DNA of 38,222 nucleotides from an uncultured Erysipelotrichaceae bacterium. Its GTDB lineage: Bacteria > Bacillota_I > Bacilli_A > RFN20 > CAG-826. This document shows positions 1 to 28,103 of the stretch, in pieces. The position numbers and the translations under genes are program-made. Every line of letters starts with the position of its first letter. Within the stretch, counting starts at the first letter, position 1. Location of the stretch: contig CADBNT010000023.1 in NCBI GenBank assembly GCA_902796125.1, positions 1 through 38,222 on the forward strand. Direction: 5' to 3'. Under the pieces are notes generated by a model, which was not told where the DNA came from, did no database searches, and saw nothing but the letters and a program-made list of their open reading frames with translations.

Positions 1-786
1 AACGATGTTTTAGACAAGATTAAATCAAATACACTCGTCATTGTTTGTGACGTTCATAGACCATCGCTTACCCTTTGTCCAAAAGTCCTAGAGAAAGCTA
101 CAAAGGTTATGGTCATTGACCATCATAGACGTAGTGAAGAATTTATTGAATCACCAGTTTTCCAATACATCGAGCCAAGTGCTTCTTCAGCATCTGAAAT
201 GATCGTTGAACTTATTCGTTATTCAAGCGCGAACCCACGTATCGAAATCCCAAGTACATACGCGACCATTATGCTCTCAGGCATATTTATGGACTCCAAT
301 TACTTCAAGGCTAAAACTTGTGGTATTCGTACCTTTGAAGCATCAATGGTTCTCAAAGAATTTGGTGCAGATAACTCTGTCGCTGATGATTATCTTAAGG
401 ATGAATTTGAAGAATACACTCTTATTACAAAGATTATTTCTACACTTAAAACACCATTCTATGGTGTCGTATATTGTGTCGCTGATGAAGATGACATTAT
501 TGAAGCTGCTACACTCGCCAAAGTTGGCAACCAATGCATGCAAATGCGTGGCGTAAACGCCTGCTTTGTCATTGGTAAAACTGCTGTTAACGAAGTTAGA
601 ATCTCTTGTCGTAGTGACGGAACAATCAACGTTCAATTACTTGCTGAAAAACTTAATGGTGGTGGTCACTTCACTCAAGCTGCTGGATCATTTAAAAATA
701 CTACAATCGATAGGGTTGAATCTCGTCTTTTAGATGTTCTTAATGAATATCTACCAGATGCTCGTAACAACCAAGAAAGGAAATAA
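1..786 (+). CDS. gdpP: Cyclic-di-AMP phosphodiesterase GdpP, C-terminal part (5' truncated by window edge)
   Basis: The reading frame is open from base 1, so this is the 3' part of a gene that begins outside the window; the ATG at 109 is internal. Visible are the DHH-domain end (VCDVHRPS, then VIDHHRR) and a DHHA1 domain ending in the substrate-binding LNGGGHF motif. GdpP proteins are membrane-anchored phosphodiesterases that hydrolyse c-di-AMP to pApA and so control potassium and osmotic homeostasis. The usual N-terminal membrane helices, PAS-like and degenerate GGDEF domains would lie upstream. The gene stops one base before rplI, and the rplI ribosome-binding site (AGAAAGGA) sits inside its last codons. 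The gdpP-rplI-dnaB order is conserved in Bacillus and relatives, which supports the call. Confidence 0.93.
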   Translation, partial: NDVLDKIKSNTLVIVCDVHRPSLTLCPKVLEKATKVMVIDHHRRSEEFIESPVFQYIEPSASSASEMIVELIRYSSANPRIEIPSTYATIMLSGIFMDSNYFKAKTCGIRTFEASMVLKEFGADNSVADDYLKDEFEEYTLITKIISTLKTPFYGVVYCVADEDDIIEAATLAKVGNQCMQMRGVNACFVIGKTAVNEVRISCRSDGTINVQLLAEKLNGGGHFTQAAGSFKNTTIDRVESRLLDVLNEYLPDARNNQERK

Positions 787-787
787 G

Positions 788-1237
788 ATGAAAGTCATTT
801 TGTTAAAAGACGTTAAAGGCGTCGGCAAAAAGTCTGAAATTGTAAACGTCAAAGATGGTTATGGCGCTAATTTCCTTATTCCTAGAGGTCTTGCAGTTGC
901 TTATTCTGAGAAGGCCCTTGAGATTCTCAATCAACAAAAAGCTGATGAAAAGGAACAAATTAGAATTGCTACCGAGAACGCTAAAGCATTAGCAGAAAAG
1001 CTTAAAAACATCACCGTTGAATTCACTGCTAATTGTGGAAGCGATGGAAGAATGTTCGGAACCATCTCCACCAAGCAAATAGAACAAGAGCTAAAAGCTA
1101 AGTTTAATATTGATATTGATAAAAGAAAAATAATCAGCAAAACTGCTGTAGATAGACTTGGATATACCAAATTACAAATCGAACTTTATAAAGGCGTAAT
1201 TGGGGAAATTAATGTTCATGTAAGTGAAAAGAAATAG
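788..1237 (+). CDS. rplI: 50S ribosomal protein L9
   Basis: 149 residues, the usual size for L9. The N-terminal domain that binds 23S rRNA is clear (MKVILLKDVKGVGKKSEIV, then DGYGANFLIPRGLA), followed by the long connecting helix and a C-terminal domain. I chose the ATG at 788 because the L9 consensus starts exactly there and AGAAAGGA lies at correct spacing; an upstream in-frame ATG at 734 would add 18 residues encoded by the overlapping gdpP tail. It is translated from the same block as gdpP and dnaB, with 11 bases to dnaB containing a strong GGAGGG site. Confidence 0.97.
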   Translation: MKVILLKDVKGVGKKSEIVNVKDGYGANFLIPRGLAVAYSEKALEILNQQKADEKEQIRIATENAKALAEKLKNITVEFTANCGSDGRMFGTISTKQIEQELKAKFNIDIDKRKIISKTAVDRLGYTKLQIELYKGVIGEINVHVSEKK

Positions 1238-1248
1238 GAGGGACGAAA

Positions 1249-2739
1249 ATGGCTAGTAAAAATAAAGTATTACCACATAACACAGAAGCTGAAAAAGCCG
1301 TTTTAGGCGCCATGATTCGTTCAACCTCTATTCTTTACGATGTCATGGCTCAACTTACTGAAAATGACTTCTACGAAGAAAATGAAAATCATCGTGCTAT
1401 CTTTGGTGCGATTGAAAGACTATATAGAAAAAGTGTTCCTGTCGATGTTCAAACAATCACTGATGAATTAATTAATTCAAAGGAAATTGAAATCGCTGGA
1501 GGACTTGAATACTTAGTTGAATTATCTGATTCAATTATTACCTTCGCGAATATTGACCAATACATTCGTATTGTTAAAGAACAATCTAACTTAAGAGCGT
1601 TCCTTAAAACAATCGAAGGCTATGTCTCTAAATGCTATACATCAGACATTGAAAGCGTTGATTCTTTCTTTGCTCAAGCCCAAAAGGATATTACCAATAT
1701 TACTGAAAAACGTAGAGTTGGTGATTTCCAAACCGCTGAAGAAGTTTCATCTCACTTAGCAGAAGAACTAAAACACTTAAAACCTGCTACAACCGATGAT
1801 TCAATCACCCAAGGTGCAACTCCAACAGGATATTCTGAACTTAATAAGAAAACCCATGGTTTTAAACCAGGTGAACTTATCGTTGTTGCTGCTCGTCCGG
1901 GTATTGGTAAAACAACTCTTAGCCTTAACCTTGCTTTTAATGCGGCTAAGCACGGACATACAGTTGCCTATTTTTCACTGGAAATGCCTGCGCAGCAATT
2001 ATTTAAGAGACTTGTTTCCGCTGACTCTAATGTTAAATTAGATTCTCTTATTTCTGGTTTCGGTTTAAATCAAAATGTTCAGCTTAAACTTCAACAATCT
2101 TGTAATGCTTTATCTAAGATGAGCATCTATATTGACGATACTGCCGGTATTCAAATTCTCGATATCGTTGCTAAATGTCGTAAATTAAAAGAAAAGACAG
2201 GCAATTTAGGCCTTGTAGTTGTTGACTATATTGGTCTTGCCCGTACCAATACTCATTACGATTCAAGACAACTTGAAGTTCAATACATTTCTCAAACGCT
2301 TAAGAAATTAGCGCTAGATTTAAATGTTCCAGTTATCGCTGTTGCACAGCTTAACCGTAACGTTGAAAGTAGATCTAATGGTGAACCAATGCTTAGCGAC
2401 CTTCGTGAATCCGGTTCTATTGAACAAGACGCTGATATTGTTCTTCTTTTACATGAAACATCTCTTGATAAATCAAGCGATTGTAGTAAAGGAAGTATCT
2501 TTGATAAGCAAGATAGAGCGGTTAACGAAGCTCAACAAAATGTTGCCAAGCAAGAAGCTGGAAATAACGAAGCCAAACTCGTTAACATCATCATTGCGAA
2601 AAATAGATCTGGTCAACAAGGCAAAGTTGCCCTCTTATTTAGAAGACCATACTGCAAATTTGACGCTCTTTCCAAAGAAGGAAATGCTCAAATTCAATCA
2701 TTAGAAGCAGAAAGATTAACATACGGAAATCGTGATTAA
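1249..2739 (+). CDS. dnaB: Replicative DNA helicase DnaB (DnaC in Bacillus)
   Basis: Hexameric 5'-3' helicase of the replication fork. The N-terminal DnaB domain begins LPHNTEAEKAVLGAMI; the RecA-like C-terminal domain has a Walker A motif (ARPGIGKTT), a Walker B strand (LGLVVVDYIGL), the AVAQLNR sensor strand and the signature LSDLRESGSIEQDADIV. At 496 residues it is some 30-50 longer than usual. The excess is a hydrophilic Asn/Gln/Lys-rich stretch after the LLLHE strand (about residues 405-435), where relatives run directly into the IIIAK.R.G motif. The Q of the common DYLQL motif is G here. It shares a TAATG one-base overlap with walJ, so the two are translationally coupled. Confidence 0.96.
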   Translation: MASKNKVLPHNTEAEKAVLGAMIRSTSILYDVMAQLTENDFYEENENHRAIFGAIERLYRKSVPVDVQTITDELINSKEIEIAGGLEYLVELSDSIITFANIDQYIRIVKEQSNLRAFLKTIEGYVSKCYTSDIESVDSFFAQAQKDITNITEKRRVGDFQTAEEVSSHLAEELKHLKPATTDDSITQGATPTGYSELNKKTHGFKPGELIVVAARPGIGKTTLSLNLAFNAAKHGHTVAYFSLEMPAQQLFKRLVSADSNVKLDSLISGFGLNQNVQLKLQQSCNALSKMSIYIDDTAGIQILDIVAKCRKLKEKTGNLGLVVVDYIGLARTNTHYDSRQLEVQYISQTLKKLALDLNVPVIAVAQLNRNVESRSNGEPMLSDLRESGSIEQDADIVLLLHETSLDKSSDCSKGSIFDKQDRAVNEAQQNVAKQEAGNNEAKLVNIIIAKNRSGQQGKVALLFRRPYCKFDALSKEGNAQIQSLEAERLTYGNRD

Positions 2740-3494
2740 TGAAATTCATAATCATTGAATCTGGATCTAAAGGAAATGCGACACTCATCATAGATGAAGG
2801 TCGTATTCTTTTAATTGATATGGGTGTTACCTTAACTGCTCTAAGAAACGCTTTAAAATCTCTAGATAAAAACTTAATGAATATTGATGCACTTTTATTA
2901 ACACATTCACATAGTGATCACACTAAAGGCGTTAGATATTTAGACCCACTTCCTATTTATTGCACTGAAGGAACTTATGATTCAGAAGAAGTTAATATAA
3001 TTAAGCCTTATAAATCATTTAAGATAAACCATATAAAAATTACTCCAATTGAAGCATCGCACGATGCTATTAATACAGTTGGTTTTATCTTTGATAACGA
3101 AAAAGAAAAACTAGTTTATATGACCGATACTGGAATGATTCCTGAAAAGTCACTTTCTTTAATGAAAAATGCTGATTATTACATCATTGAATCAAATCAT
3201 AATGTTAAAAAGCTCCATCAATCAAATCGTCCAGTTGATCTTAAACTAAGGATTTTGTCTGATAATGGTCACTTATCAAATGAAGATTCCGCTATTTATA
3301 TGACTGAATTAGTGGGCAAGAATACTAAACAAATTGTTTTAGCACATTTGTCAGAAGAATGTAACGCTCCTGAATTAGCGTTATCTGCCTATAAAAAAGT
3401 ATTTTCAAAAGCGCATATTTCTTTAACAAATATCGATTTAAAATGTGCCAGTCAACATGAGGCTTTAGTGGGAGGAAAAGTAGATGAATTATGA
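2739..3494 (+). CDS. walJ: Metallo-beta-lactamase-fold hydrolase, WalJ (YycJ) family
   Basis: 251 residues with the metal-binding motif LTHSHSDHTKGV near residue 55, a downstream MTDTG strand with the bridging Asp, and the C-terminal AHLSEE.N.PELAL signature typical of WalJ/YycJ. In Bacillus and streptococci WalJ is a cytoplasmic MBL-fold nuclease-like protein encoded with the WalKR two-component system and tied to coordination of replication and cell-wall metabolism. No walK or walR is visible here; instead the gene is coupled to dnaB by a TAATG overlap. Its last 11 bases overlap the next gene and carry that gene's GGAGG site. It stops at TGA, evidence that TGA is a true stop codon. Confidence 0.88.
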   Translation: MKFIIIESGSKGNATLIIDEGRILLIDMGVTLTALRNALKSLDKNLMNIDALLLTHSHSDHTKGVRYLDPLPIYCTEGTYDSEEVNIIKPYKSFKINHIKITPIEASHDAINTVGFIFDNEKEKLVYMTDTGMIPEKSLSLMKNADYYIIESNHNVKKLHQSNRPVDLKLRILSDNGHLSNEDSAIYMTELVGKNTKQIVLAHLSEECNAPELALSAYKKVFSKAHISLTNIDLKCASQHEALVGGKVDEL

Positions 3495-3822
3495 AGAATT
3501 TTCTGATTTAAAGAGCATCAAACTAAAAGAAACTAGTTTAGTAAAATGCTTCGAACTTGAAAGTGGTTCTCGCTTCTTTATTGAACCTCCATTTTACACT
3601 CAACTCATGTCATTAAAAGAGATATATCCAGATGAATTTCCGCGAGTCATTGCACAGATGAAAAAGCTTGCAAATGAAAGAAAATATGTGGGTTTTGTAT
3701 ATGATTTTGAAAATCCATTCGTGCAACTAGATGGTTATATTTATCTCGAAATCACCGATGTTACAGATCCAATTAAAGTCTTTTATGAAGACAAATCGAG
3801 AGGCTCAGATTACGGAGATTAA
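3484..3822 (+). CDS. Small conserved-looking protein of unknown function
   Basis: 112 residues; I do not recognise a family. The composition is soluble, mixed alpha/beta and slightly acidic, with aromatic-rich strands (SRFFIEPPFY, KYVGFVYDF, GYIYLEITDV) and no signal or membrane segment. A strong GGAGG site lies at 3471-3475, inside the walJ tail, and the start overlaps walJ by 11 bases, so translation is probably coupled to walJ and dnaB. It is the last gene of the leading core operon. About 50 bases of AT-rich DNA separate it from the next gene. Confidence 0.75.
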   Translation: MNYEEFSDLKSIKLKETSLVKCFELESGSRFFIEPPFYTQLMSLKEIYPDEFPRVIAQMKKLANERKYVGFVYDFENPFVQLDGYIYLEITDVTDPIKVFYEDKSRGSDYGD

Positions 3823-3873: not shown

Positions 3874-5181
3874 ATGAACGTTACAATTATTGGGCTTGGT
3901 TATGTCGGACTTGTAAACGCTGTCGTGTTCGCATCGTATAATCACGATGTCATTGGCTTTGATGTTGACAAAGAGAAGGTTTCACTTTTAAAACAAGGCA
4001 TTTCACCTATTGATGAAGATGGTGTCCAAATCCTTCTTTCTGAAGCAAAACATAAAATCAGATTTACTACGAATGCTAAAGATGCCATTCGTCCAAATAG
4101 TTTAATTTCAATTGCTGTTGATACTCCTCCTGATGAAGAAGGCAATATCGACATGAAGAATTTTAATAATGCTGTTGAGCTTATTGCTGAAAATGCTGCA
4201 CAAGATTCCATTGTTTGCATTCATTCAACTGTTCCACTTGGCACAAATCGAAAAGTAAAACAATATCTTGAGTCTCATAGTAAATACAAATTCGAAGTTG
4301 TCTCTATGCCAATGTTTGTGAGGGAAGGAACTGCTCTTAGAGATTTTGTTTCACCTTCTAGAATAATTATTGGTACTGATTCTCCAAAGGTAGAAAAAGA
4401 AATACGTTCAGTTGTCGAATCATTCTTAGTAAAAAAAGTTCCTATCATGGTAACAACTCCAGAAAACGCTGAAGTTATCAAATGTGCTTCTAACACATAT
4501 CTTGCCATGAGAGTTTCATTTATTAATGAAATAGCTCGTATTTGTGAATACATTGGAGCGGATATTGATAAAGTAAGTCTAGGCGTCTCTCTTGATCCAA
4601 GAATTGGTCTTTCTTATTTCAAACCAAGTGTTGGTTATGGTGGAACATTTTATCCGAAAGATAATCTTCAACCTAAAAACGAACTATCTGTTTTAGGAGA
4701 ACAGTTTGTTTTGTCTAGAGCAATCATTGAATCTAATAAGAAACAGATTCAGTTCTTTATCGATAAGATCTTTAAACGCTTTAAATCAATCACCAACTTC
4801 AAGGTTGCTGTGCTTGGCCTATCTTATAAAGGTGACACTGAAGACGTTAGAAATTCTCCAGCAATTAAAGTGGTGAGAGCTCTTCTAGATAAATACGCTG
4901 AAATCTATGCTTATGATCCTCTTGGAGAAGATAATTTTAAGAAACTATTTATTAGACATACCCATATCCACTACATGGATTACGCAAAAGACGCTTTAGC
5001 AAAAGCTGACTTTGCAGTTATCCTCAATGATTCAAATGAATTTAAGAATCTAACGATAGATGATTTCAAAGTGATGAAACATATGGTCATATTCGATGGT
5101 AAAAACCTATATAAGCTAGAGAATATGAAAGGTGCTGAATACCATTCAGTAGGACGTCCAACAATTGGACTTACGAAATAA
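3874..5181 (+). CDS. UDP-glucose/GDP-mannose dehydrogenase family protein lacking the catalytic Cys
   Basis: 435 residues with full family architecture: N-terminal Rossmann dinucleotide site (GLGYVGLVNA), STVPLGT motif, central dimerisation helix (K203 and N207 in IKCASNTYLA) and C-terminal UDP-binding domain (LGLSYKGDTEDVRNSP). Family members oxidise a sugar nucleotide C6 alcohol twice to a uronic acid through a thioester on the Cys of GGSCFPKD. Here that segment is GGTFYPKD, so the nucleophile is Phe259, and the Glu of NPEFLREG is Met147. Asp263 is kept. Substrate-binding and first-step residues therefore remain while thioester chemistry should be lost. No Shine-Dalgarno is evident; a weak TTTGCA/TAAAAA pair sits just upstream. 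A perfect hairpin terminator follows. Confidence 0.85.
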   Translation: MNVTIIGLGYVGLVNAVVFASYNHDVIGFDVDKEKVSLLKQGISPIDEDGVQILLSEAKHKIRFTTNAKDAIRPNSLISIAVDTPPDEEGNIDMKNFNNAVELIAENAAQDSIVCIHSTVPLGTNRKVKQYLESHSKYKFEVVSMPMFVREGTALRDFVSPSRIIIGTDSPKVEKEIRSVVESFLVKKVPIMVTTPENAEVIKCASNTYLAMRVSFINEIARICEYIGADIDKVSLGVSLDPRIGLSYFKPSVGYGGTFYPKDNLQPKNELSVLGEQFVLSRAIIESNKKQIQFFIDKIFKRFKSITNFKVAVLGLSYKGDTEDVRNSPAIKVVRALLDKYAEIYAYDPLGEDNFKKLFIRHTHIHYMDYAKDALAKADFAVILNDSNEFKNLTIDDFKVMKHMVIFDGKNLYKLENMKGAEYHSVGRPTIGLTK

Positions 5182-5182
5182 A

Positions 5183-5210
5183 AAAAGCGATTCGTGATTG
5201 AATCGCTTTT
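5183..5210. terminator. Bidirectional intrinsic terminator
   Basis: Perfect 11-bp stem (AAAAGCGATTC with GAATCGCTTTT) and 6-nt loop, ending in T-rich sequence on the plus strand and in an A-run that reads as U on the minus strand. It sits between the dehydrogenase gene and the convergent gene at 5225-6358, so it can serve both. Confidence 0.9.
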
Positions 5211-5224
5211 AATTAATAAATTAA

Positions 5225-6358
5225 TTACTTAACTGGCTTTGTATCAACAGTCTTAACTGGTTTGCTGTATTTATTTTGTGATGGCGCTGCACTTTCTGGA
5301 CGAAGTGTTTTCATAGAAAGCCACATGACTCTTACGCCAAGGAATAAGGCGAAGAACACTTGAGTAAATGAACTTAATAAGAATGATAAGCCACATGTTA
5401 AGACAGCTGGAGTAAATGATGCCCAAGCGGAAATCTTTTGGCATTCCCAAATGGTGAAGATACGATATGGGTTATTTTTACCTCTAGTAAGAACCCAGAT
5501 CATAAGACCCATAAAGATGGTTAAACCAGCATTAATACCAAACATCATTAATGTTGTTTGCCAGGTTAATGTAAAACGAGTGTTGAGATAGAAGGTCTTG
5601 TAGAATACTTTCCAGTTAGACCAAGTATCATTTGTGTATGTAAGATAGTTTTCACTAGCTTTAGCTTGTTCGTGATTCTTGCCACCATTAATGTTGTTTA
5701 ATAAGTAGTTATCTTCAAAATAATTATAGTTACCATAAATGCTAGCAACTGTTGCTTTATTCTTTTCGACATTTTGGATGTACATAACAACATTCTTTTC
5801 GCTTAAGACAAGGTAAGAGCCACCACGAGTAACTCTTGTTTCTTTTCCTTCAGCGTCGGTTGTAGTGACATAAGCGATAGAATTGATCTTGTCGTTATTT
5901 TCAAATTCTTCTTGGGAAAGAATGTAAACTTGCAAGTCAACTAAGCCATTGGAGTTAATATGACTCCAGCAGTTGTTGCCACTTTCATCGGTGCCCCAAT
6001 ATGAATAGGCGGTTTCACCAATGACAGTACCTTTTTCTTTGTTATCGCAATATTCTTTCCATTTGTTAGCATCTGCTTCAAGTCTCTTATCGGAATCACC
6101 TTCTTTGATGAAGATGGAATATTCTTTATCGTTAATATCTTCAACGAAACGTTGCATAGCAACTTCCATTCCGTATGAATAATTAGCGATGCTTGAATCT
6201 CCTTCACGGATGTAGGATTGAACAAAGACTGGAATAACGGCGATTAATAATGAAAGGATGAAGAATGGAACGGCGAAGTACCAAGGACGATGTCTTCCTC
6301 CTTCAACACAGGCTGGATTTGATATAAGTGAACGTAAAATAAGTTTTAAATGTTTCAT
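5225..6358 (-). CDS. Membrane protein with large extracytoplasmic loop, unknown function
   Basis: 377 residues. A short N-terminal cytoplasmic part is followed by one membrane helix (about residues 27-48), then a hydrophilic loop of roughly 200 residues, then three further hydrophobic helices (about 260-345) and a short Lys/Pro tail with a near-repeat KPVKTVDTKPVK. The layout recalls DUF1189-type membrane proteins of Firmicutes, but I cannot identify it with confidence. It has no Shine-Dalgarno; a TTGATT/TAATAT promoter (16-bp spacer) ends 10 nt before the ATG, predicting a nearly leaderless mRNA. It is convergent with the dehydrogenase gene and divergent from tmRNA. Confidence 0.8.
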   Translation of the reverse strand: MKHLKLILRSLISNPACVEGGRHRPWYFAVPFFILSLLIAVIPVFVQSYIREGDSSIANYSYGMEVAMQRFVEDINDKEYSIFIKEGDSDKRLEADANKWKEYCDNKEKGTVIGETAYSYWGTDESGNNCWSHINSNGLVDLQVYILSQEEFENNDKINSIAYVTTTDAEGKETRVTRGGSYLVLSEKNVVMYIQNVEKNKATVASIYGNYNYFEDNYLLNNINGGKNHEQAKASENYLTYTNDTWSNWKVFYKTFYLNTRFTLTWQTTLMMFGINAGLTIFMGLMIWVLTRGKNNPYRIFTIWECQKISAWASFTPAVLTCGLSFLLSSFTQVFFALFLGVRVMWLSMKTLRPESAAPSQNKYSKPVKTVDTKPVK

Positions 6359-6865: not shown

Positions 6866-6891
6866 TCTCAAGTATATGCTTGAGATTTTTT
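6866..6891 (+). terminator. Terminator of ssrA
   Basis: 7-bp stem TCTCAAG / CTTGAGA with a 6-nt loop (6873-6878) followed by six T residues, 12 bases after the tmRNA CCA end. It overlaps an in-frame ATG at 6876, which is therefore not the start of the next gene. Confidence 0.85.
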
Positions 6892-6904
6892 ATTACTTTG
6901 TATG

Positions 6905-6917
6905 TAATAATTTAAAT
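6905..6917 (+). promoter_or_regulatory. Possible leaderless -10 for the CotH-like gene
   Basis: TAATAA (6905-6910) preceded by TATG, 7 nt before the ATG at 6918, without Shine-Dalgarno. The -35 region falls in the ssrA terminator T-run and is weak, so confidence is low. Confidence 0.3.
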
Positions 6918-8609
6918 ATGAAAAGAAAAACAACAATCGTGTTTTTCCTAACAACTACTTTGTTAGTGGTTTCATGTGCAAATAACGATACTCCAACATC
7001 ATCTTCCACTTCTCAAGATGTTCCTATTTCATTAGAAATTAAAGCATCTCATAATTCTGGATTTTATGATGATGAATTTAATTTATCGTTAGAAGGGAAC
7101 GCTCCAGAAATCTATTACACTACTGATGGAAGTGAACCTACCAAAGAATCTACTCGTTATTATGGACCTATTCACATCTACGATCGTAGTAGAGAAGAGA
7201 ATCTTCTTGCTAACAGAAACGATTTGTCTCCTCTAGAGAATTACTACAAACCAAACTTTAAAATTGATAAGGCTTTTGTACTTTCTTACACAGCGTTTAA
7301 CGGAGAAGAACAAGGACCTATTTATCACCAAACTTATTTTATAAATAAATCAAATAACTCACTAAAGACAGTTTCTTTAACACTAAACAACAATGATTTA
7401 TTTAACGAAGAAACTGGCATTTATTGTTTAGGCAATATTTATAAAAACGCTTCAGAAATAGAAAAGGAAAATCCTTATACCGCTCCTGCTAACTATAGTC
7501 AAAAAGGAAAAGAATGGGAGCGAAAAGCAAATATCTCCATTTTTAATAGCGATAAAGAACAAATTATTGGTCAAGACATTGGAATTAGAATCCAAGGCGG
7601 ATGGACAAGAGCTTATAACCAAAAGAGTATCTCTTTATACGCCAGAAAAGAATATGACAAGACAGGAACATTTGATATTCCACTTGTGAATAATATAAAA
7701 CACGACAGATATATCTTAAGAAGTGGTGGTTATCGCGATTGGGCTATTACAAAAATGAGAGATATGCTTAGTCAAAGTCTATCTAGCGGTCTTGGATTTG
7801 AAACGATGAGCGGAGAACCAGTAGAAGCATATTTAAACGGTGAGTATTGGGGTGTCTATGAACTTGTCGAAAAATATAGCGATTCATATATCCAAGATAT
7901 CTATGGAATTCCTAAAAAGAACGTCGAGATTATCAAAACAGGAGAAGTGGATGAAGGAGATGAATCAACTTTAGAAAGATACGAAGAGATGGTTAATTTC
8001 TTTAAAGATACAGATTTATCTATTGAAAGTAATTATGATATTGCAGAGCAATATATTGATATAGATGCATTTATCAATTACGTTGTTTGTGAAACTTATA
8101 TTGGCAATGTAGATTGGCCAAAGAACAATATCCGTTTTTGGAGAAGTAAAACTGCTGGTGAAAATAGATATGAAGATTGTAAGTGGAGACCGATGATGTA
8201 TGACACGGATGACTCTTCTGCAGTTCCACCTATCGAACATAAAAGCGGTGTTAGTGTTGATCCGTTTTTAGAAAGTGCTCATTGGGCCGGTGGTCCACTC
8301 TCAGATAAATGTGACTTAGGAAATATAATGTTGTCCTTATTAAATAACAATGAATTCAAACAAAGATTTTATGAACGAGCGGAAGATATCGTTGAGAACG
8401 TTTTTAATTACTCTAATGTTCATTCAAAAATCGAAGCATTAAAAGCGAAAATCCAAAACGTGATTGTTAAACAATATCGTCGTTTCGTAAGTGAAGAGTT
8501 AGATTTGAATTATTTTAATGAGCAAGTTAATGTAATTGATAGTTTCTTTTCTAATAGAAAAAGCTATTATAATACATATCTCCATAATCATCTTGGGGAG
8601 GTAGTCTAA
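6918..8609 (+). CDS. Lipoprotein with CotH-type kinase domain and chitobiase-like N-terminal domain
   Basis: 563 residues from the ATG at 6918, chosen because it gives a clean lipoprotein signal (lipobox VVSC, Cys20) and because an upstream in-frame ATG at 6876 lies inside the ssrA terminator. Residues about 45-115 resemble the CHB_HEX_C beta-sandwich (IYYTTDGSEPT). The rest is a CotH domain: LRSGGYRDW, then EAYLNGEYWGVYELVEKY, DWPKNNIRFW (Asp399) and MYDTDDS (Asp429/431), matching the catalytic and metal-binding Asp motifs of the atypical kinases first seen in Bacillus spore-coat CotH. Such kinases are also common in non-sporulating bacteria, with unknown targets. No Shine-Dalgarno; TAATAA lies 7 nt before the ATG. 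It overlaps the esterase gene by one base (TAATG). Confidence 0.85.
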   Translation: MKRKTTIVFFLTTTLLVVSCANNDTPTSSSTSQDVPISLEIKASHNSGFYDDEFNLSLEGNAPEIYYTTDGSEPTKESTRYYGPIHIYDRSREENLLANRNDLSPLENYYKPNFKIDKAFVLSYTAFNGEEQGPIYHQTYFINKSNNSLKTVSLTLNNNDLFNEETGIYCLGNIYKNASEIEKENPYTAPANYSQKGKEWERKANISIFNSDKEQIIGQDIGIRIQGGWTRAYNQKSISLYARKEYDKTGTFDIPLVNNIKHDRYILRSGGYRDWAITKMRDMLSQSLSSGLGFETMSGEPVEAYLNGEYWGVYELVEKYSDSYIQDIYGIPKKNVEIIKTGEVDEGDESTLERYEEMVNFFKDTDLSIESNYDIAEQYIDIDAFINYVVCETYIGNVDWPKNNIRFWRSKTAGENRYEDCKWRPMMYDTDDSSAVPPIEHKSGVSVDPFLESAHWAGGPLSDKCDLGNIMLSLLNNNEFKQRFYERAEDIVENVFNYSNVHSKIEALKAKIQNVIVKQYRRFVSEELDLNYFNEQVNVIDSFFSNRKSYYNTYLHNHLGEVV

Positions 8610-13058: not shown

Positions 13059-13798
13059 AAAAGTCTCTAGTATTACTTCCATTATTTGCTTTAGCACTTT
13101 GCTCATGCGTAAAGACTGCTGAACTTTATCCTGATGACGCATATTGCCACACTGAGTTTGATCTTAACTATTACACTGAGTGGAATAATGTTGATACTTT
13201 AAAGATAAATACAACGAAAACCGTAAGTGCAATCGTTGCACCACCTCAAGAAGGCTTGTCGCCGAGCGCAGTGGAATTTGGTAATAAAAACAAACTAACT
13301 TCAATCGATACTTCATTTGCGTATGGATATTTATCCAAACTTTATGATGGAAGAATCTCTTGCGGTGGTTTATATCAAAAATCACGTGTCCAATTAGATA
13401 AAACAGGATATGCGACATTCTTCCCAAAACAACTTAAGAGTGCGTCAACTTTCTATATGGCTCTTAGAGGTGGAACAACTTGTGAAAAACCACTTAGAGC
13501 AAATTTGATTGTTGATTACGAGGTAACATTCTATATCCATATCACTAATAGTGATGCATACGATAAAGTTGTTTATAAACTCAATGATGTTCAAACAATT
13601 ACTGATTTCGGTGGAGATACAAGACTTTATAGCTTCTCTTTAACTGAAAGCATCAAAGATGCTGTTGCAATGTCTATAACTTATAACTTAAAAGATACAT
13701 CTCATCCAGAAATCGCTGATGATTATAAAGATGAAGAAAAAGAGCATTTTGCGATAATGCTCTATGAAATTCTTCTTCCAAATTCAACTTGGTTTTAA
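13055..13798 (+). CDS. Lipoprotein of unknown function
   Basis: 247 residues with a lipoprotein signal (MKKSLVLLPLFALALCSC, lipid-accepting Cys18). The mature part is a soluble, mostly beta protein without a family I recognise. It overlaps the upstream membrane-protein gene by four bases (ATGA), so the pair probably works together at the cell surface. Its stop codon interlocks with that of the convergent TupA-like gene (shared TTAA at 13795-13798), leaving no space for a terminator between them. Confidence 0.8.
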   Translation: MKKSLVLLPLFALALCSCVKTAELYPDDAYCHTEFDLNYYTEWNNVDTLKINTTKTVSAIVAPPQEGLSPSAVEFGNKNKLTSIDTSFAYGYLSKLYDGRISCGGLYQKSRVQLDKTGYATFFPKQLKSASTFYMALRGGTTCEKPLRANLIVDYEVTFYIHITNSDAYDKVVYKLNDVQTITDFGGDTRLYSFSLTESIKDAVAMSITYNLKDTSHPEIADDYKDEEKEHFAIMLYEILLPNSTWF

Positions 13799-14706
13799 TT
13801 TTTAAGATACTTAGATATATCTAACCATTCACCCATTTCAAAGTCGCACTTATCATTATCGAGGATGAGTGTTCCTTTTGCTGGAGTAAAGGTTAATTCG
13901 GAAAAATAAATTTTTCCATCAATGTTATATAAGTCTACCCTCACAAATGGGAAATCTTTCGCTAAATCTTCAGCAATTTTGACCATTTCATCCCAGTTTT
14001 TTGGAATAGGAAGTTTTTCTTCTCTTTTCTTCCAACCGTTAAACTGTGAACCATCGAATTCTTTCCAATCGATGTAGTAATTGTTGTAACGGATATCTTT
14101 TCCTCTACCGGTTACAACATACATTGATTTTGCTACACCATTGAAGACATGAATTTTATATTCAGTTGGTAAAGAATCAATTTCACCGAGATATTTTTCA
14201 ATAATGATTCTTGGCTTGATAGGGGAGTAGTGTTTTTCGACTGTTTTATTTCCATAGTTGGTCTTTAACCATTTATTGAATTTCTTTTTTGAAGATTCTT
14301 TATCAAATTTAGATTTATCGCGAACTATTTCATTAAAAGCACATGCGTGAGTGCACTTCATAACAAATTGAGCAGGAAGTTTATCAAAATCGATATCTTC
14401 AAATTTGTCATATATACCATAGATTGGAATAAGGATCTTTTCGTATCCTTTTTCTTTTAGAAACTCTCTTGCTCCATCTCTAGATGCAGCCTTAATTACA
14501 AGAGGTTCTTTTGGATAAACAAAAAGTCTCAAATATTGGAGTTTTTCTGTGTATCTAGTTGGATTTTTTAAATTAAGTTTATGGTGAGTTATATATTTAT
14601 ATTGATGTTTTACATATGAAACAGGCGAAAGAACCTTAATGACATTTCTAAAAGGAAGGGCAAAAGCTCTTTTAACTTTGTTTTCTTTAAGATTTGGGTT
14701 TGCCAT
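13795..14706 (-). CDS. TupA-like ATP-grasp protein
   Basis: 303 residues. The pattern NPTRYTEKLQYLRLF, ARDGAREFLKEKGYEKILIPIYGIYD, FVMKCTHACAFNEIV, NKTVEKHYSPIKPRIIIEKYLGE and FPFVRVDLYNIDGKIYFSELTFTPAKG matches the TupA-like ATP-grasp family, named for a teichuronopeptide biosynthesis gene of an alkaliphilic Bacillus. Members occur in capsule and surface-polymer loci and probably form amide links to glycans. ATP-binding Lys and the C-terminal metal-binding E-x-T are visible. Predicted leaderless: TTGAAT, 17-bp spacer, TACAAT, then 8 nt to ATG. The stop overlaps that of the convergent lipoprotein gene. Confidence 0.85.
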   Translation of the reverse strand: MANPNLKENKVKRAFALPFRNVIKVLSPVSYVKHQYKYITHHKLNLKNPTRYTEKLQYLRLFVYPKEPLVIKAASRDGAREFLKEKGYEKILIPIYGIYDKFEDIDFDKLPAQFVMKCTHACAFNEIVRDKSKFDKESSKKKFNKWLKTNYGNKTVEKHYSPIKPRIIIEKYLGEIDSLPTEYKIHVFNGVAKSMYVVTGRGKDIRYNNYYIDWKEFDGSQFNGWKKREEKLPIPKNWDEMVKIAEDLAKDFPFVRVDLYNIDGKIYFSELTFTPAKGTLILDNDKCDFEMGEWLDISKYLKN

Positions 14707-15671: not shown

Positions 15672-18600
15672 ATGATTAAAACCCATTTGTTAATTGGACT
15701 TGCCGCTTTAATGTCCGCGGGTCTAATTACTAGCCACGCTCAACCTCAAACAAATCTAAAAGAGAAAGATACAAGAATCATTGTAGAACTCTCTAAAGGA
15801 TTGGACGGTTTATCTGAGCAACAAATTTCAAATTCCCAAAGCGCTTTGCTTTCCCGCATTCGTAATACAGTTACAAATAATTTAGATGTCGTTGAACACT
15901 ATAACGTTTTAGCGAACGCTGTTTGTATTTCTGTGAATAATGAAGATGTCGAGGCAATTAAAAATGTTCCAGGTGTAAAAAGTGTCACTGTTGATAAACT
16001 TCACGCGAAGAAAACCACAGGTGAAACTTATTCTGCTCGTATCACAAGAGCAGATCCAATTCCTGATGAAAACATTTCTGCTACCACCATGCAAAAACCT
16101 AATGGTACAAGCGATGGTGAAGGTACTGCTATCGCCATTCTTGATAACGAATTTTATCTACGTGGCAAACACGAAGTCACTGATACTCACGCTAAAGACT
16201 GCGCTTTTGCTAAGCAAGAAGATGATGGAAGAGCTATTCATCATGAAGTATTCTCTCCACTTTCTGAAGGTGTCAAAGTTAGATATACATTTGATAATCT
16301 AACCTCTCTTGTTTCCAAAACAAAAGCAAAAAGAAAATCATCTAAAATTGAAGCAGGAGAAGAAGGCTCTTTATATTTCAATAACAAAGTTCCTTTCTAC
16401 TATGACTACGGCGGAACTTCCACAAGTTATGGTAAAGAAGGCAAGATGGACTACGATGTTTCTAGCTCTGTCGACTACCATGGTAGTCACGTTTCTTCCA
16501 TTACTGCTGCTAATGCTGCTACCTATAAAGGTATTGCTCCTAAAGCTCAACTTGTTTTGATGAAAGTTTTCACCGATTACAAAGCAAGTAAAACAGCCGA
16601 AAACCTTGGTTTTGGTACTTCAACCGGCGCATACGATTCATGTATTCTTGCTGCCTTAGAAGACTGCATTGCTTTAGGTGTTGATGGAATCAATATGTCT
16701 CTTGGTAGTGATCTTGATGACTTTGATCAAGATTCAATTACCTTAAAAACACTTACCAAACTTGCAAATTCTGGAATCATGACTTCCATTTCTGCTGGTA
16801 ACTCAGGTAAGAGTTCTTATTCTTCCATTGGTGGCTATGCCAACTGGACAAAAGATATGGTTGAAACAGGCATTATGTCTTCATACGCGAATAACGCGTC
16901 CGTTATGACAATTGCTTCTGGTCAACCAGATCAAATCTTCTATGAAACCGCTATTCGTATTGGTGATAGCAACATCGCCTACGATGATCAAATCGTCAAT
17001 AGAGAAGGTCTTGATGATGAATACCTTGTTGAACACAAGATGTATGATGATTTAGGCCCAGGCACTCACGGCTATCAATACATTCCTGGATTTGGTGCCT
17101 CTACTGACTACGAAGGTCTTGATGTTGAAGGCAAAGTCGCTGTTGTTAATCGTGGTAGCACATCATTCGCTGATAAATATAAAGTAGCAGTGGATAAAGG
17201 TGCTTCTGCTCTTATTGTTATTAATAACGACCCAACCTCATCCGACTTCAACTTCCGTATGAGCTTTGGTGATGGCTTTAGCCCATCTATTCCATGTGCT
17301 CTTGTCTTATTTAAAGACAAAACATTCTTTGAAGCCAATAAATCAGGAACATTCACATTCCTTTCTAAAGAAGTTTCTGATAACGCTGATAAGAGAACTA
17401 TCTCAAGTTATTCCACCGATGGTGCAACCTATGATTATGATTTAAAACCAGAAATTACCGCACCTGGTGAAAATATTCGTGGTGCAGTTCCTCCACAAAA
17501 TAAAGATGATAGAACTGCCACACCACTTTCTACCTATCAATACCTTTCAGGTACATCTATGTCTGCTCCTAACTATGCAGGCGCACAAGCTCTTGTTTTA
17601 GGTGAATCAAGCGCTATGCAAGATGCTATTAGTGATGGAGAAATCTCCTCTGAAGAAAGAGCGAAGATCAATGCATACCGTAAGACAGTTGATATGAGAC
17701 TTATGTCTACAGCTGTTCCAATGGTTGATAGAAATGAAAATCCTGAAACACACGTGAAGACCCTTACTTCTCCACGTATGCAAGGCGCTGGTATGGTCAA
17801 CCTTACAGGTGCTATTAATTCAGATGTCTACCTTGAAGGATTAAATGATTCCAACAATGGAATCGGTAAGACAAAAATTGTCTTAAGAAATAACGCTGAT
17901 ATTGCAAGTGGCAAGATTAATCTCAAATTCCTTGCTCACAATGAATCTGAATCATCAAGAAGTTATGATGTCGTCTTATCAGTTATGAGACCAGCGGTCA
18001 AAAACGCTAATGACATCATCACTAAAGACTATAACTTCCGTGGTGAAATCGAATCCATTAAGCTTCTTCCAGGAATTACCTACTATGATGGTAGTTCAGT
18101 CGTGAAGAGCCAAGGCACAGCATCTTATAAAGATGTCTTCAAGCTTACTAAACAACTTGAATATTGGCCAAATGAAGCTGCTTATAATCTTGATCATCCA
18201 CTTGGTCAACCAGTTAAATATGATAATGCTGTCGTATTTGCTCAAGGAGCATACTATGTATCAAGTAACGTTAAGAATGCTTCTACTGGAATCGTCTACG
18301 ACGTTCTTCCAGGAAAAGATTATCAATCAGTTCAAGATGTCCTTATTACTAAGGTAGAAGGTCAAGTAGTTAGCATTCCTTCTGGTGAATCAACTGTCAC
18401 CATCAATGAATATAACTTAACCGAAGAACAAAAGACCGCTATCTTAAATGCTTATCCATACGGATGTGCTATTGAAGGATACGTTGAACTTAAGAGCAAA
18501 GATTCTCTTCCAGACTTAGTAATCCCATATCTTGGTTTCTATTCTGGAACAGATAAAGATTCTTCTAAATCATATGCTTCTGCTCCAGTTGCAGAACCAT

Positions 18601-19796
18601 TCTCATTTGAAAAAGATATTTCCGAAGTCTATCCATCTGACTTAGTTAATGACATTACTAAATCACTTCTTGGTAAAGACAATGTCGACTTCGGTTCAAT
18701 GATGCTTGTTGGTCACGCTAATAAGCCAGGTGATATTAACACCAATAGCGTCTTATCAAATGATCAAAACTTCAAGCAATTAGCAGGATTCTACGAAGTA
18801 GGATTAGATCCAAATAATGGCAAATTCCTCGATGATGCCAAAAACAATATTTATGTTGGTAATCCAGATGAATCTAATACTCTCATCATTCAACAATTCA
18901 TGCTTAGAAGCGTTGATGATAACTACTTCACAATTAAGAATTCAAAAGGCGAAATTGTTTATAAATCAGTCCTCGAAGATATGCTATTTGGTGATCAATA
19001 TGGAAGATATCCACTTTATAAATCCCATGTTGATGGCGATTATCTAGGCACAGGCTATGTTGCTCATAGAGCATATGCAGCTGTTCCACTATATAATCCA
19101 GACACTAACGAAAGCTTCGAAGATGGTGTCTATACACTTACATTCAACTATAAATTAGCAGCGACAAACGATTGGGTTAGTAATAGTTACTCACTCAACG
19201 TTGATAGAACAAATCCAGTCGTCTCTAATGTTAAACAATATACTGGCGAAGATGGCGAAGCTCGCGTTCGTATCGATATTAATGATATGAGAGCCAGCTA
19301 TGCTGTCGTTGGCTATAGTAAACATGATGTTGAATATGATGAACAGAATAAATCGTATTACATCGATATGTCCAAAGAAGAAATTGATGCTTCAATGGAA
19401 GAAGTCGGTGCAACCCTTAAGGGTCAAAAACGATTATTCGTCAAAGTATATGACATGGCGAGAGGTTATACTGGTGCAATTATCCACTTCACAAGTAAAG
19501 ATAATTACAGCGAATATCAAATCGTCCAAGGTCGTAATCTCAATGTTTATAACGACTTCATCTATAAAGATGGGGCTATCAGTTATATTGAAATCGATAT
19601 CGACGGAAATGAAACAGCCGTTGAAATCGCTGGAAATGTTTCCACCAATCTCGCTTTAGCGGGTGAAGGCTTATCCACAGGCGCATTAGTTGGTATTATC
19701 TGTGGATCAGTTGGTGGCGCACTTCTTCTTGGTGGAGGAGCAGTAGTGCTCGTTCTCTACCTCAAAAAGAGAAAAGCTACTAAAGTAGCGGAATAA
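15672..19796 (+). CDS. Giant membrane-anchored S8 subtilisin-like protease (lactocepin/C5a-peptidase type)
   Basis: 1374 residues. A signal peptide (about 1-23) is followed by an inhibitor-I9-type propeptide (RIIVELSKGL... to about 112). The S8 domain has Asp158 (AIAILDNEF), His270 (DYHGSHVSS), oxyanion Asn377 (SAGNSG) and Ser629 (LSGTSMSAP). The long His-Ser spacing holds a protease-associated domain (VEGKVAVVNRGSTSFADK...), as in lactocepins and C5a peptidases. Large beta-rich repeats follow. The end is a single membrane helix and a basic KKRK tail, with no LPXTG, so it is held in the membrane facing out. The usual D-T/S-G is D-N-E here. It heads an operon with an OppA-like lipoprotein, which implies extracellular digestion of proteins for import. 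Confidence 0.93.
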   Translation: MIKTHLLIGLAALMSAGLITSHAQPQTNLKEKDTRIIVELSKGLDGLSEQQISNSQSALLSRIRNTVTNNLDVVEHYNVLANAVCISVNNEDVEAIKNVPGVKSVTVDKLHAKKTTGETYSARITRADPIPDENISATTMQKPNGTSDGEGTAIAILDNEFYLRGKHEVTDTHAKDCAFAKQEDDGRAIHHEVFSPLSEGVKVRYTFDNLTSLVSKTKAKRKSSKIEAGEEGSLYFNNKVPFYYDYGGTSTSYGKEGKMDYDVSSSVDYHGSHVSSITAANAATYKGIAPKAQLVLMKVFTDYKASKTAENLGFGTSTGAYDSCILAALEDCIALGVDGINMSLGSDLDDFDQDSITLKTLTKLANSGIMTSISAGNSGKSSYSSIGGYANWTKDMVETGIMSSYANNASVMTIASGQPDQIFYETAIRIGDSNIAYDDQIVNREGLDDEYLVEHKMYDDLGPGTHGYQYIPGFGASTDYEGLDVEGKVAVVNRGSTSFADKYKVAVDKGASALIVINNDPTSSDFNFRMSFGDGFSPSIPCALVLFKDKTFFEANKSGTFTFLSKEVSDNADKRTISSYSTDGATYDYDLKPEITAPGENIRGAVPPQNKDDRTATPLSTYQYLSGTSMSAPNYAGAQALVLGESSAMQDAISDGEISSEERAKINAYRKTVDMRLMSTAVPMVDRNENPETHVKTLTSPRMQGAGMVNLTGAINSDVYLEGLNDSNNGIGKTKIVLRNNADIASGKINLKFLAHNESESSRSYDVVLSVMRPAVKNANDIITKDYNFRGEIESIKLLPGITYYDGSSVVKSQGTASYKDVFKLTKQLEYWPNEAAYNLDHPLGQPVKYDNAVVFAQGAYYVSSNVKNASTGIVYDVLPGKDYQSVQDVLITKVEGQVVSIPSGESTVTINEYNLTEEQKTAILNAYPYGCAIEGYVELKSKDSLPDLVIPYLGFYSGTDKDSSKSYASAPVAEPFSFEKDISEVYPSDLVNDITKSLLGKDNVDFGSMMLVGHANKPGDINTNSVLSNDQNFKQLAGFYEVGLDPNNGKFLDDAKNNIYVGNPDESNTLIIQQFMLRSVDDNYFTIKNSKGEIVYKSVLEDMLFGDQYGRYPLYKSHVDGDYLGTGYVAHRAYAAVPLYNPDTNESFEDGVYTLTFNYKLAATNDWVSNSYSLNVDRTNPVVSNVKQYTGEDGEARVRIDINDMRASYAVVGYSKHDVEYDEQNKSYYIDMSKEEIDASMEEVGATLKGQKRLFVKVYDMARGYTGAIIHFTSKDNYSEYQIVQGRNLNVYNDFIYKDGAISYIEIDIDGNETAVEIAGNVSTNLALAGEGLSTGALVGIICGSVGGALLLGGGAVVLVLYLKKRKATKVAE

Positions 19797-24957: not shown

Positions 24958-26007
24958 ATGTTAAAATATTCTATTAAAAGAATAATTTTGGCGTTGATTA
25001 CAGCGTTTATTATTTTGACGCTGACCTTTTTTCTTGTGAAGTCACTTCCTCCTAGAGGAGTTGTTACTTCTGATGACAACGTTCGTTATGCTTTCTATGT
25101 TGACCAAGTCAATCTTGGCTATGTTCTTGATATGCCAAGTGAAGCAAAATGGTTAGCAGATGAACCTCTTGCCTTAGTTAAATTCGATAATGGTGTAGAA
25201 CACTGGTTTTATCAAAAACCAGTTTTAGACCAATATTTTGCTTGGCTTGGTAATATCGTAACCAAATGGGACTGGGGAAGATCAACGGTTCTTGAACCGA
25301 ACTCTTCAGCGATTAATATTATTTTCTCGCGTTTACCAGTTTCTGTTTCCGTTAACGTCATTGCTGTTTTTGTTTCTGTTCCTTTAGGAATTGCCTTAGG
25401 CATTTTAGCAGGCTTAAAGAAAAACACTTGGATTGACCATACCATTTCTACTTTGGTAATGATCTTCATTTCCATTCCATCATTCGTTGTTATTACCTTT
25501 ATGGTTTATATCCTCGCTTTTAAAGGAGGATTATTACCAACAATTTGGCCTACTCCAGACCAATCAACTCAAACTAAAGTTTTAGCCTATATTATTCCTG
25601 TCTTATCTCTTTCGTTTGGTTCTGTATGTGGATATACAAGATTTGTCCGTGCGGAACTTTGCGAAGTTATGTCCAGCGAATATCTATTACTCGCTAGAAC
25701 CAAAGGTTTAACTAAAACTCAAGCGATCACTAGACACGCTTTAAGAAATGCGTTCGTCCCAATTTTGCCATCCATTCTTGCAGAATTCATTGGAGTTTTC
25801 TCTGGATCCATGATTCTAGAAAATATTTATGGCATTCCTGGTATTGGTGATCTTTACATTAAAGCCTTGAACCAAAACAATCCGGACTACAACGTCCTTA
25901 TGGTTGATATGGCTATCTTTATTACTGTAGGACTTCTCGCTGGAATCATCCTCGATTTATCCTATGGCTTTATTGATCCTCGTATTCGTATGGGAGAAAA
26001 GAAATAA
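24958..26007 (+). CDS. oppB: Oligopeptide ABC transporter permease OppB
   Basis: 349 residues, normal length. N-terminal helix (MLKYSIKRIILALITAFIILTLTFFLVKSLPPRG), an external loop with YFAWLGNIVTKWDWGRS, then five helices with the EAA loop SSEYLLLARTKGLTKTQAITRHALRNAF that docks on the ATPase, and the ending DPRIRMGEKK. It forms the transmembrane pathway with OppC. A TAATG overlap couples it to oppC. Confidence 0.95.
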   Translation: MLKYSIKRIILALITAFIILTLTFFLVKSLPPRGVVTSDDNVRYAFYVDQVNLGYVLDMPSEAKWLADEPLALVKFDNGVEHWFYQKPVLDQYFAWLGNIVTKWDWGRSTVLEPNSSAINIIFSRLPVSVSVNVIAVFVSVPLGIALGILAGLKKNTWIDHTISTLVMIFISIPSFVVITFMVYILAFKGGLLPTIWPTPDQSTQTKVLAYIIPVLSLSFGSVCGYTRFVRAELCEVMSSEYLLLARTKGLTKTQAITRHALRNAFVPILPSILAEFIGVFSGSMILENIYGIPGIGDLYIKALNQNNPDYNVLMVDMAIFITVGLLAGIILDLSYGFIDPRIRMGEKK

Positions 26008-28103
26008 TGGCAAAGAAAAAAGAAGACTTTGATATTACTAAGCTCCCTATTGAGGCTCAAGATCCAGAGATTAAAGCTGAAGACTTTGTTATTTCTGATG
26101 AAAACAAAGTTGTTCATGAACAAAAGCTTCAAACTAAACCAACAACATTCTTAAGAGACTCTTTAAAGAGATTCTCTAAAAACAAATCGTCTGTTGTTGC
26201 TTCTATTATTTTAGGTTTATTACTTCTTTTATCTGTTGTTGTACCTCTTGCAGATCAAAGTGATGTTTCTGTTTCTCATCCTGAAGCAGTTTATCTTGAA
26301 CCAAAATTATTTAATTCTGGAACTGGATTCTGGGATGGCACGAAGAACTTTGAAAACATCGCGGTTGATATTTCTCCAGATCCTGAAGGAATTGATAAAG
26401 AGGCTAACTGGTGGCCAAACCCAGAAAGATTTGAAAGAAACGCGATTACTAAAAAAGTATTCACTCCTGAAACATACACAAATCAACTTTCTGGTTATGG
26501 AAAACAAGGTTATTTACAAACCGGTTACTATAACAACATTGATGATTCTAAAGAATTTGTAGAGTTCAAGACTCAACAAATGTCTGTCGATTTCAACGTT
26601 AACGTTAATCACTATGTAACTGAATTTGATACATATAACGAAGAAAAACTTGAAGTTATTGAAGGAAAAGATAACGCAAAGCTTCCTGAAAACTATGTTT
26701 TAGGTGAAGCAGCTTTGTATTTTAACTATATCGATGGTGAAGAAGAAAAACACTCCATCGAAATTATTGGCTATTCAAGTGAACACAATATTGGAAGTGA
26801 TGTCACTAGTAGAGCTACATCTAAAGTCAATATCTCAAGCGTTATCAAATCACAAAGTGAACAAACCGTCTTTGAAAAATGTAGTTTCTCCATTCGTATT
26901 AAAAACGAATTAAAACACGAGAATACTTGTATTCTTCTTAAGAAGTTCTCTTTTGCTACTGATTCCACTGATAAAGCTTTTAAAGAACAATTCTTAGCTC
27001 CTAACTTCTCAGATGCGACTGAATGTATGAGAAGAGAATCTAAGATTGAGAGTGCTATTAACTATAAATATTGGTCTTCAACAGGTACCAAACAAATCTA
27101 TGAATCAAAAGTAGTGTATTGTTCATTCACTTACGACTCATATGAAGCAAAGCTTGGCACCAAAGAATGGACTTCATTCCCATTAACCAAACTTGAAGAA
27201 TACCGTGTAAAGGGTTGGCTTGATTGGAACGTTGATGTTGATTTTGAGCATGGCGAATTCGTTTTGAACTTAGATACATTCGCTGGTGAAGTCAAAAATC
27301 CAAAGAAATGTCCTGTTGCTAAAGACATTGCTCCTGAAGATGTTTACGTTGATCCAACAAACGGCGATGTATTTGTTGACTGTATGATTACTTTTTATAA
27401 GTATTATGGTTATGATTCAATGCCAGTGTACCTATTTGGTACAGATAAAAGTGGCAGAGACATGCTTAAATACGTCTTTGAAGGTTTAAGAACATCACTT
27501 TTACTTGGCATTGCTACAACTCTTGTTTGTTGCATTATCGGTCTTATCTATGGTGCTGTTTCCGGCTATTATGGCGGAACTGTTGACCTTGTCATGGAAA
27601 GAATTACCGATATCTTATCTGGACTTCCATGGATTGTTGTTATGACTTTAGTCATCATCCATATGGGTTCTAACTTCTTTACCTTCGCTCTCGCGTTATG
27701 TCTGACCGGATGGATAGGCACTGCCGCGACAACCAGAACTCAGTTCTATAGGTTTAGAGGACGAGAATACGTTCTTGCTTCACGTACATTAGGCGCTTCT
27801 GACGCAAGACTTATTAGAAAGCACATTTTACCTAATGCGATGGGTACAATTATCACCGCGGAAGTTTTAATGGTGCCTTCTGTCATCTTCTCTGAAGCTA
27901 CCATTTCCTATTTAGGATTAGGTCTAAAGAATTTATCATCATTAGGTGTTATTCTTTCGAATAACCAATCAGAGTTAACATCTAACTCATATTTACTTAT
28001 CTTCCCATCAGTAATCATTGCTTTACTTATGATTTCATTTAACTTGTTCGGTAATGGTTTACGTGATGCGGTTAACCCAAGTCTGAAAGGAGAAGAAGAA
28101 TAA
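26007..28103 (+). CDS. oppC: OppC permease with about 390-residue extracytoplasmic insertion
   Basis: 698 residues against about 300-350 normally. An N-terminal cytoplasmic segment and first helix (about 61-83) are ordinary. The C-terminal permease (about 475-698) has the family LFGTDKSGRDMLKYVF motif, helices and the EAA loop GREYVLASRTLGASDARLIRKHILPNA. Between helix 1 and that motif, where relatives have some tens of residues, lie about 390 residues of soluble, aromatic-rich, beta-predicted sequence with no recognised family, on the outer face by topology. The frame is continuous, so this is an insertion within one protein and not two fused reading frames. It overlaps oppB and oppD by one base each (TAATG). 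Confidence 0.93.
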   Translation: MAKKKEDFDITKLPIEAQDPEIKAEDFVISDENKVVHEQKLQTKPTTFLRDSLKRFSKNKSSVVASIILGLLLLLSVVVPLADQSDVSVSHPEAVYLEPKLFNSGTGFWDGTKNFENIAVDISPDPEGIDKEANWWPNPERFERNAITKKVFTPETYTNQLSGYGKQGYLQTGYYNNIDDSKEFVEFKTQQMSVDFNVNVNHYVTEFDTYNEEKLEVIEGKDNAKLPENYVLGEAALYFNYIDGEEEKHSIEIIGYSSEHNIGSDVTSRATSKVNISSVIKSQSEQTVFEKCSFSIRIKNELKHENTCILLKKFSFATDSTDKAFKEQFLAPNFSDATECMRRESKIESAINYKYWSSTGTKQIYESKVVYCSFTYDSYEAKLGTKEWTSFPLTKLEEYRVKGWLDWNVDVDFEHGEFVLNLDTFAGEVKNPKKCPVAKDIAPEDVYVDPTNGDVFVDCMITFYKYYGYDSMPVYLFGTDKSGRDMLKYVFEGLRTSLLLGIATTLVCCIIGLIYGAVSGYYGGTVDLVMERITDILSGLPWIVVMTLVIIHMGSNFFTFALALCLTGWIGTAATTRTQFYRFRGREYVLASRTLGASDARLIRKHILPNAMGTIITAEVLMVPSVIFSEATISYLGLGLKNLSSLGVILSNNQSELTSNSYLLIFPSVIIALLMISFNLFGNGLRDAVNPSLKGEEE

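Follow-up and report, generated by a model that had tools for sequence, protein, structure and literature searches.

The window (the whole stretch of 38,222 nucleotides analysed here) encodes a nucleotide-sugar dehydrogenase homologue in which the catalytic Cys and an invariant Glu are both replaced, and our assessment is that this protein stands about an even chance of belonging to a retained lineage of UDP-sugar-binding pseudoenzymes that would make no uronic acid by the thioester route. The Cys, reported as invariant in 229 nucleotide-sugar dehydrogenases, is absent from 23 of the homologues that we analysed (27 keep it), yet the protein is conserved. Repeated loss of the Cys from a gene that is retained under selection suggests that the protein was repurposed, not broken.

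Residues lost and kept in the window protein

The reading frame is 435 codons long without an internal stop (Table 1). Its product scores 373.8 bits against the nucleotide sugar dehydrogenase model TIGR03026 (cut-off 189.8), and all three UDPG_MGDP_dh domains (PF03721, PF00984 and PF03720) are above their cut-offs; against the TuaD equivalog NF047673 it reaches 345 bits, below the 700-bit cut-off. The nearest solved structures are UgdG, BceC and human UGDH, of which the latter two are also matched by the predicted fold (TM about 0.8). The prediction used an input alignment of 8 diverse rows, and the model has the right fold but an unreliable catalytic loop, with pLDDT below 50 at residues 245-261 and 266-277. 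In fold, length, the three domains and the NAD and UDP-sugar residues, the protein resembles UDP-glucose 6-dehydrogenase (Ugd/TuaD/UGDH; TIGR03026, NF047673); it differs in lacking the catalytic Cys and Glu141, and would hence have no thioester route.

Table 1. Positions in the window of the dehydrogenase homologue, its diagnostic codons and its neighbours
Feature	Position	Strand	Basis
Cys-less nucleotide-sugar dehydrogenase homologue, 435 aa	3874..5181	+	profile and domain matches; fold match to BceC and human UGDH
Tyr10, kept in the window copy, lost in both larger Cys-less clades	3901..3903	+	
Codon ATG, Met147 at the invariant Glu position, motif PMFVREG	4312..4314	+	
Lys203 and Asn207, first-step residues, kept	4480..4494	+	
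Codon TTT, Phe259 at the catalytic Cys position, motif GGTFYPKD	4648..4650	+	
Asp263, general base, kept	4660..4662	+	
Upstream housekeeping block rplI, dnaB, metallo-beta-lactamase-fold protein (YycJ-like); locus anchor in the window's family	734..3494	+	genes named from the sequence
Upstream neighbour conserved at the locus, ORF of 112 aa without a Pfam match (cluster 2)	3484..3822	+	
Terminator-like hairpin between the convergent dehydrogenase and membrane-protein genes	5183..5210	-	
Convergent downstream neighbour conserved at the locus, membrane protein of 377 aa without a Pfam match (cluster 3)	5225..6358	-	

Residue roles were taken from PMC4794789 and PMC3184952. The former lists 18 residues invariant across the 229 enzymes, Cys260 and Glu141 among them, and 16 of the 18 are present in the window copy, with only E141 (to M) and C260 (to F) lost; this pair is one of 153 possible pairs among the 18 residues, a figure calculated post hoc. 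All of the first-step residues (Lys204, Asn208, Asp264 and Thr118) and of the NAD site (GxGxxG, Asp29, Thr83 and Arg327; family numbering) are present, and in the protein's own numbering the GxGYVG motif, Asp30, Thr84 and Lys319 are retained besides Lys203, Asn207 and Asp263. An active four-electron UDP-glucose 6-dehydrogenase is expected to carry the catalytic Cys (Cys260 Sp, Cys276 human) and Glu141/Glu161, where the window copy has Phe259 and Met147. Codon reading and residue comparison agree with the first-pass annotation, which had described both substitutions and the retention of Lys203, Asn207, Asp263 and the nucleotide-binding regions. A sequencing or frame error is ruled out, as at least two base changes separate a Glu codon from the Met codon and both residues are also missing from three other species.

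That annotation also called the Glu thioester-hydrolysing, which is one of two published views. Thioester hydrolysis is assigned by PMC4794789 to Tyr10, which the window copy keeps, and the Glu is given a structural, loop-holding role; the Glu161Gln mutant of human UGDH, on the other hand, traps the thiohemiacetal (PDB 3KHU; PMC3184952), which supports the hydrolytic role. The closest engineered parallels are the Cys276 mutants of human UGDH (Sommer et al. 2004, cited in PMC4794789), which, as summarised in PMC3184952, miss the same nucleophile but retain Glu161, whereas both residues are naturally lost in the window copy, whose Phe is bulkier than the Ala or Ser of the mutants. Loss of a catalytic motif with retention of the fold is also the pattern outlined for pseudoenzymes in general in the review PMC10211241. 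In the literature searched, we found no description of a pseudoenzyme within the nucleotide-sugar dehydrogenase family or of a natural Cys-less UGDH.

Repeated loss of the catalytic Cys

Homologues of the window type were gathered from the genus, the family and the order, with identities to the window protein that range from about 57% to 32%. The 23 without the Cys are the window copy, three congeners sharing a 7-residue insertion (motifs GGSMLPIS, GGPVLPFS and GGPMLPFS), one further congener with a deletion at the motif (G013, GG-VMEET) and a second family of the order (f3, motif GGP[ASW][LI][PT][QLM]D), in which the Cys is missing from 18/18 of the genomes among the matches listed; around the insertion and the G013 deletion, the alignment of active-site columns is approximate. 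A class-wide sample queried with an f3 protein yielded no f3-type protein outside f3, and the class members read at about 40% identity or less have the Cys, except for the window copy and one already known congener. A search for viral relatives found none.

In the maximum-likelihood tree the three insertion species and the window protein form a group (support 97/99), which persists when the tree is rebuilt without both motif regions (97/98). The motif-free tree gives three Cys-loss events (the window and the three species; the further congener; f3) and one loss of the Glu; a single Cys loss is found in none of the bootstrap trees, and the starred branches alone force two. The Cys therefore appears to have been lost at least twice and probably three times. 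Because the window copy groups with three species that also lack both residues, the double loss is a property of a clade. The exact Phe/Met pair, for which the first-pass annotation had proposed to look in a phylogeny, occurs in the window copy only. One homologue with the Cys (L045, from G146) has lost the invariant Lys204 (K to N; EMTNSATND) and is possibly another inactive form.

The Cys-less clades differ in what else they have lost. Tyr10, present in 27/27 intact copies, is Phe or Leu in 18/18 of the f3 genomes among the matches listed, where Cys260 is also lost, Thr83 is lost in 12/18 and Gly9 is partly lost, while Glu/Asp141, Lys204, Asn208, Asp264, Lys320, Gly257/258 and Arg244 are retained. 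The three insertion species lack Cys260, Glu141, Tyr10 (His in 3/3), Thr118, Asp264 and Gly9, and retain Lys204, Asn208, Lys320, Arg244 and Gly257/258. Conservation in both of these clades is highest in the C-terminal UDP-binding domain and lowest in the NAD domain (0.776/0.647 in f3 and 0.846/0.706 in the insertion species), whereas the two are about equally conserved among intact copies (0.607/0.585). The divergence of the window copy from intact ones lies mainly in the central catalytic domain (0.473 vs 0.64 among intact copies).

A conserved locus and a second, canonical dehydrogenase

In most of the neighbourhoods read, the dehydrogenase has the same two genes nearby, that for the 112-aa ORF upstream and the convergent one for the membrane protein downstream. 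These two neighbours come after rplI, dnaB and the YycJ-like gene in the window's family; in f3 the upstream block differs and both neighbours recur, so that two families of the order share their placement beside the dehydrogenase. A few distant members (e.g., L076, L078 and L080) and the canonical L101 are located elsewhere. Neither neighbour matched Pfam, so the synteny comes without a functional clue. In nine other species of the genus 27-41 bp separate the flanking neighbours, and the dehydrogenase is missing from the gap. This absence is read as secondary loss because the same place is held in other genera and in f3, and it indicates that the gene is dispensable. The tally for the genus is 5 intact, 5 Cys-less, 9 absent and 5 undetermined.

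The window genome (1.0 Mb, 107 contigs, 91.5% complete) carries on another contig a second, canonical UGD with intact GGYCLPKD and SPEFLREG motifs, to which the window protein is about 30-33% identical. Size, base composition and class suggest that the organism may be an uncultured, RF39-like member of the small-genome Bacilli. All 18 invariant residues are present in each of the four canonical copies of the tree set. Another UGD is found in 4/5 Cys-less compared to 1/5 intact genomes of the genus, a difference that is not significant (Fisher p = 0.21), while 16/18 of the listed f3 genomes have no other UGD match. Two canonical-type homologues from congeners (L027 and L028) read FFYSGYCLPKD where others read FGYGGYCLPKD, with the Cys kept and a motif Gly altered, and their Lys320 region is altered as well (DTESNGEKYH and ETENNGEKSH, where others have TMKSGSDNFR).

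Selection on the Cys-less copies

Both larger Cys-less clades are under purifying selection, with dN/dS of 0.01-0.12 for f3 pairs and 0.055-0.073 for the three insertion species; these are simple Nei-Gojobori estimates, and values with dS above about 1 are rough. For the window copy, synonymous sites are saturated against the sister clade and selection is judged from its tree neighbours, so its own selection history can be stated with less confidence than that of f3 or the insertion species. When dN is divided by that of the YycJ-like gene, the window copy gives 0.84-1.34 in comparisons with three intact relatives and four intact pairs give 0.72-0.82; the window copy is thus somewhat faster-evolving than intact copies. 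Simulated neutral drift of the window ORF at 0.1 substitutions per site introduced about 6 stops and left 0/500 frames open. Parsimony would place the Cys loss in the common ancestor with the insertion species, in which case the window copy has long been maintained without it; a later parallel loss is the alternative.

The first-pass annotation had argued for selection more than random decay, and had held that close homologues with both residues intact, together with relaxed selection in this copy, would speak against it. Its argument seems likely to be right given the clade-wide double loss and the purifying selection on Cys-less copies elsewhere in the order. At the same time, intact homologues up to 57% identical exist, the window copy is faster and nine congeners have cleanly lost the gene, so some of what is seen reflects relaxed selection on uronate formation.

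Interpretation and rival explanations

The starting point would be the UDP-glucose-dehydrogenase orthologue that an order of small-genome Bacilli keeps at a conserved locus (the "positional" copy), from which the second, thioester half of the reaction was presumably lost in the window's lineage while the protein was kept. Most likely the protein has kept its binding of a UDP-sugar (with NAD as a second ligand of the window copy) and forms a UGDH-type oligomer. It would not form UDP-glucuronate and could act as a UDP-sugar-binding pseudoenzyme, e.g., a metabolite sensor or scaffold, with uronate, where needed, probably supplied by a separate canonical dehydrogenase. The conservation of the UDP-binding domain in the Cys-less clades, unlike in intact copies, appears to favour this reading. 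Several observations count against it: the window copy retains every NAD and first-step residue, which a pure sugar binder would not need; it has no close relative, and the gene is absent from nine congeners; and Asp264, Lys204 and Asn208 are kept in the listed f3 genomes, which also fits a two-electron enzyme.

These retained residues bring in a changed reaction of the kind that the first-pass annotation favoured, in which only the first, reversible two-electron oxidation is carried out (with the 6-aldehyde as product, or as a keto step with a different UDP-sugar) and Phe259 reshapes the pocket. A single step of this kind is possible in the window copy because its NAD residues, Thr119, Lys203, Asn207 and Asp263 are all intact, and human C276A UGDH provides a precedent, since it stalls without completing the reaction from UDP-glucose and is yet able to act on the aldehyde (PMC3184952). 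The divergence of the central catalytic domain is likewise as expected with a new substrate. But the sister clade has lost Asp264, Thr118, Gly9 and Tyr10, and f3 has lost Thr83 in most listed genomes and Gly9 in part, so redox chemistry is not the common trait of the Cys-less forms, and the sister species argue for lost redox chemistry over a shortened reaction; a free 6-aldehyde is moreover reactive, and no partner enzyme was identified. We therefore regard altered catalysis as quite unlikely. Binding of a UDP-sugar fits better than a common new reaction because what the Cys-less forms share is the loss of the thioester half with the UDP-sugar side retained.

The main other rival is decay, in which a second UGD made the positional copy superfluous, and the latter lost its thioester residues and is heading for the loss seen in nine congeners. 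The closed-up loci of those species, the faster evolution of the window copy and the weak association with another UGD all fit such a course. Yet the ORF is intact and 16 of its 18 invariant residues persist despite synonymous saturation against the sister clade, and simulated neutral drift left no open frame; that sister clade, itself Cys-less, is under strong purifying selection, and the divergence of the window copy is concentrated in the central domain instead of being spread. Decay is thus unlikely. A prozyme-like role, in which the Cys-less copy would form a complex with the cell's canonical UGD and regulate that enzyme, is very improbable: the two coexist in four of the five Cys-less genomes of the genus, but nearly all listed f3 genomes have no second UGD to pair with, and the two proteins of the window genome are distant in sequence and encoded on different contigs.

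For the order as a whole, we more tentatively suggest that a locus-conserved UGDH was repeatedly converted into a non-oxidising UDP-sugar binder (sensor or scaffold) in these gut-type Bacilli, which could give the nucleotide-sugar dehydrogenase family its first conserved pseudoenzyme lineage, the window copy being an early stage with only the thioester residues lost. The homologues form a natural series from intact copies through loss of the thioester residues and then also of first-step residues to loss of the gene, which lets one test what UGDH contributes to the cell apart from uronic acid. If such proteins are automatically annotated as UDP-glucose dehydrogenase, their organisms would wrongly be predicted to synthesise uronic acid.

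Other features of the window

A TupA-like ATP-grasp protein (13795-14706, minus strand; PF14305, 147 bits), of a family named for teichuronopeptide synthesis, is encoded 8.6 kb from the Cys-less dehydrogenase. The gene at 6876-8609 codes for a lipoprotein with a CotH kinase domain and a chitobiase C-terminal-type domain. A 1374-aa subtilisin-like surface protease with a C-terminal membrane anchor (15672-19796) is followed by lipoproteins and a transporter, which together look like a peptide-scavenging locus. The transporter is a peptide-type ABC transporter (28103-31085 and 26007-28103); in both of its ATPases, the stretch from the Walker A region to the signature motif appears to hold long, charged, coiled-coil-like inserts, and its second permease has a large insert in the first half.
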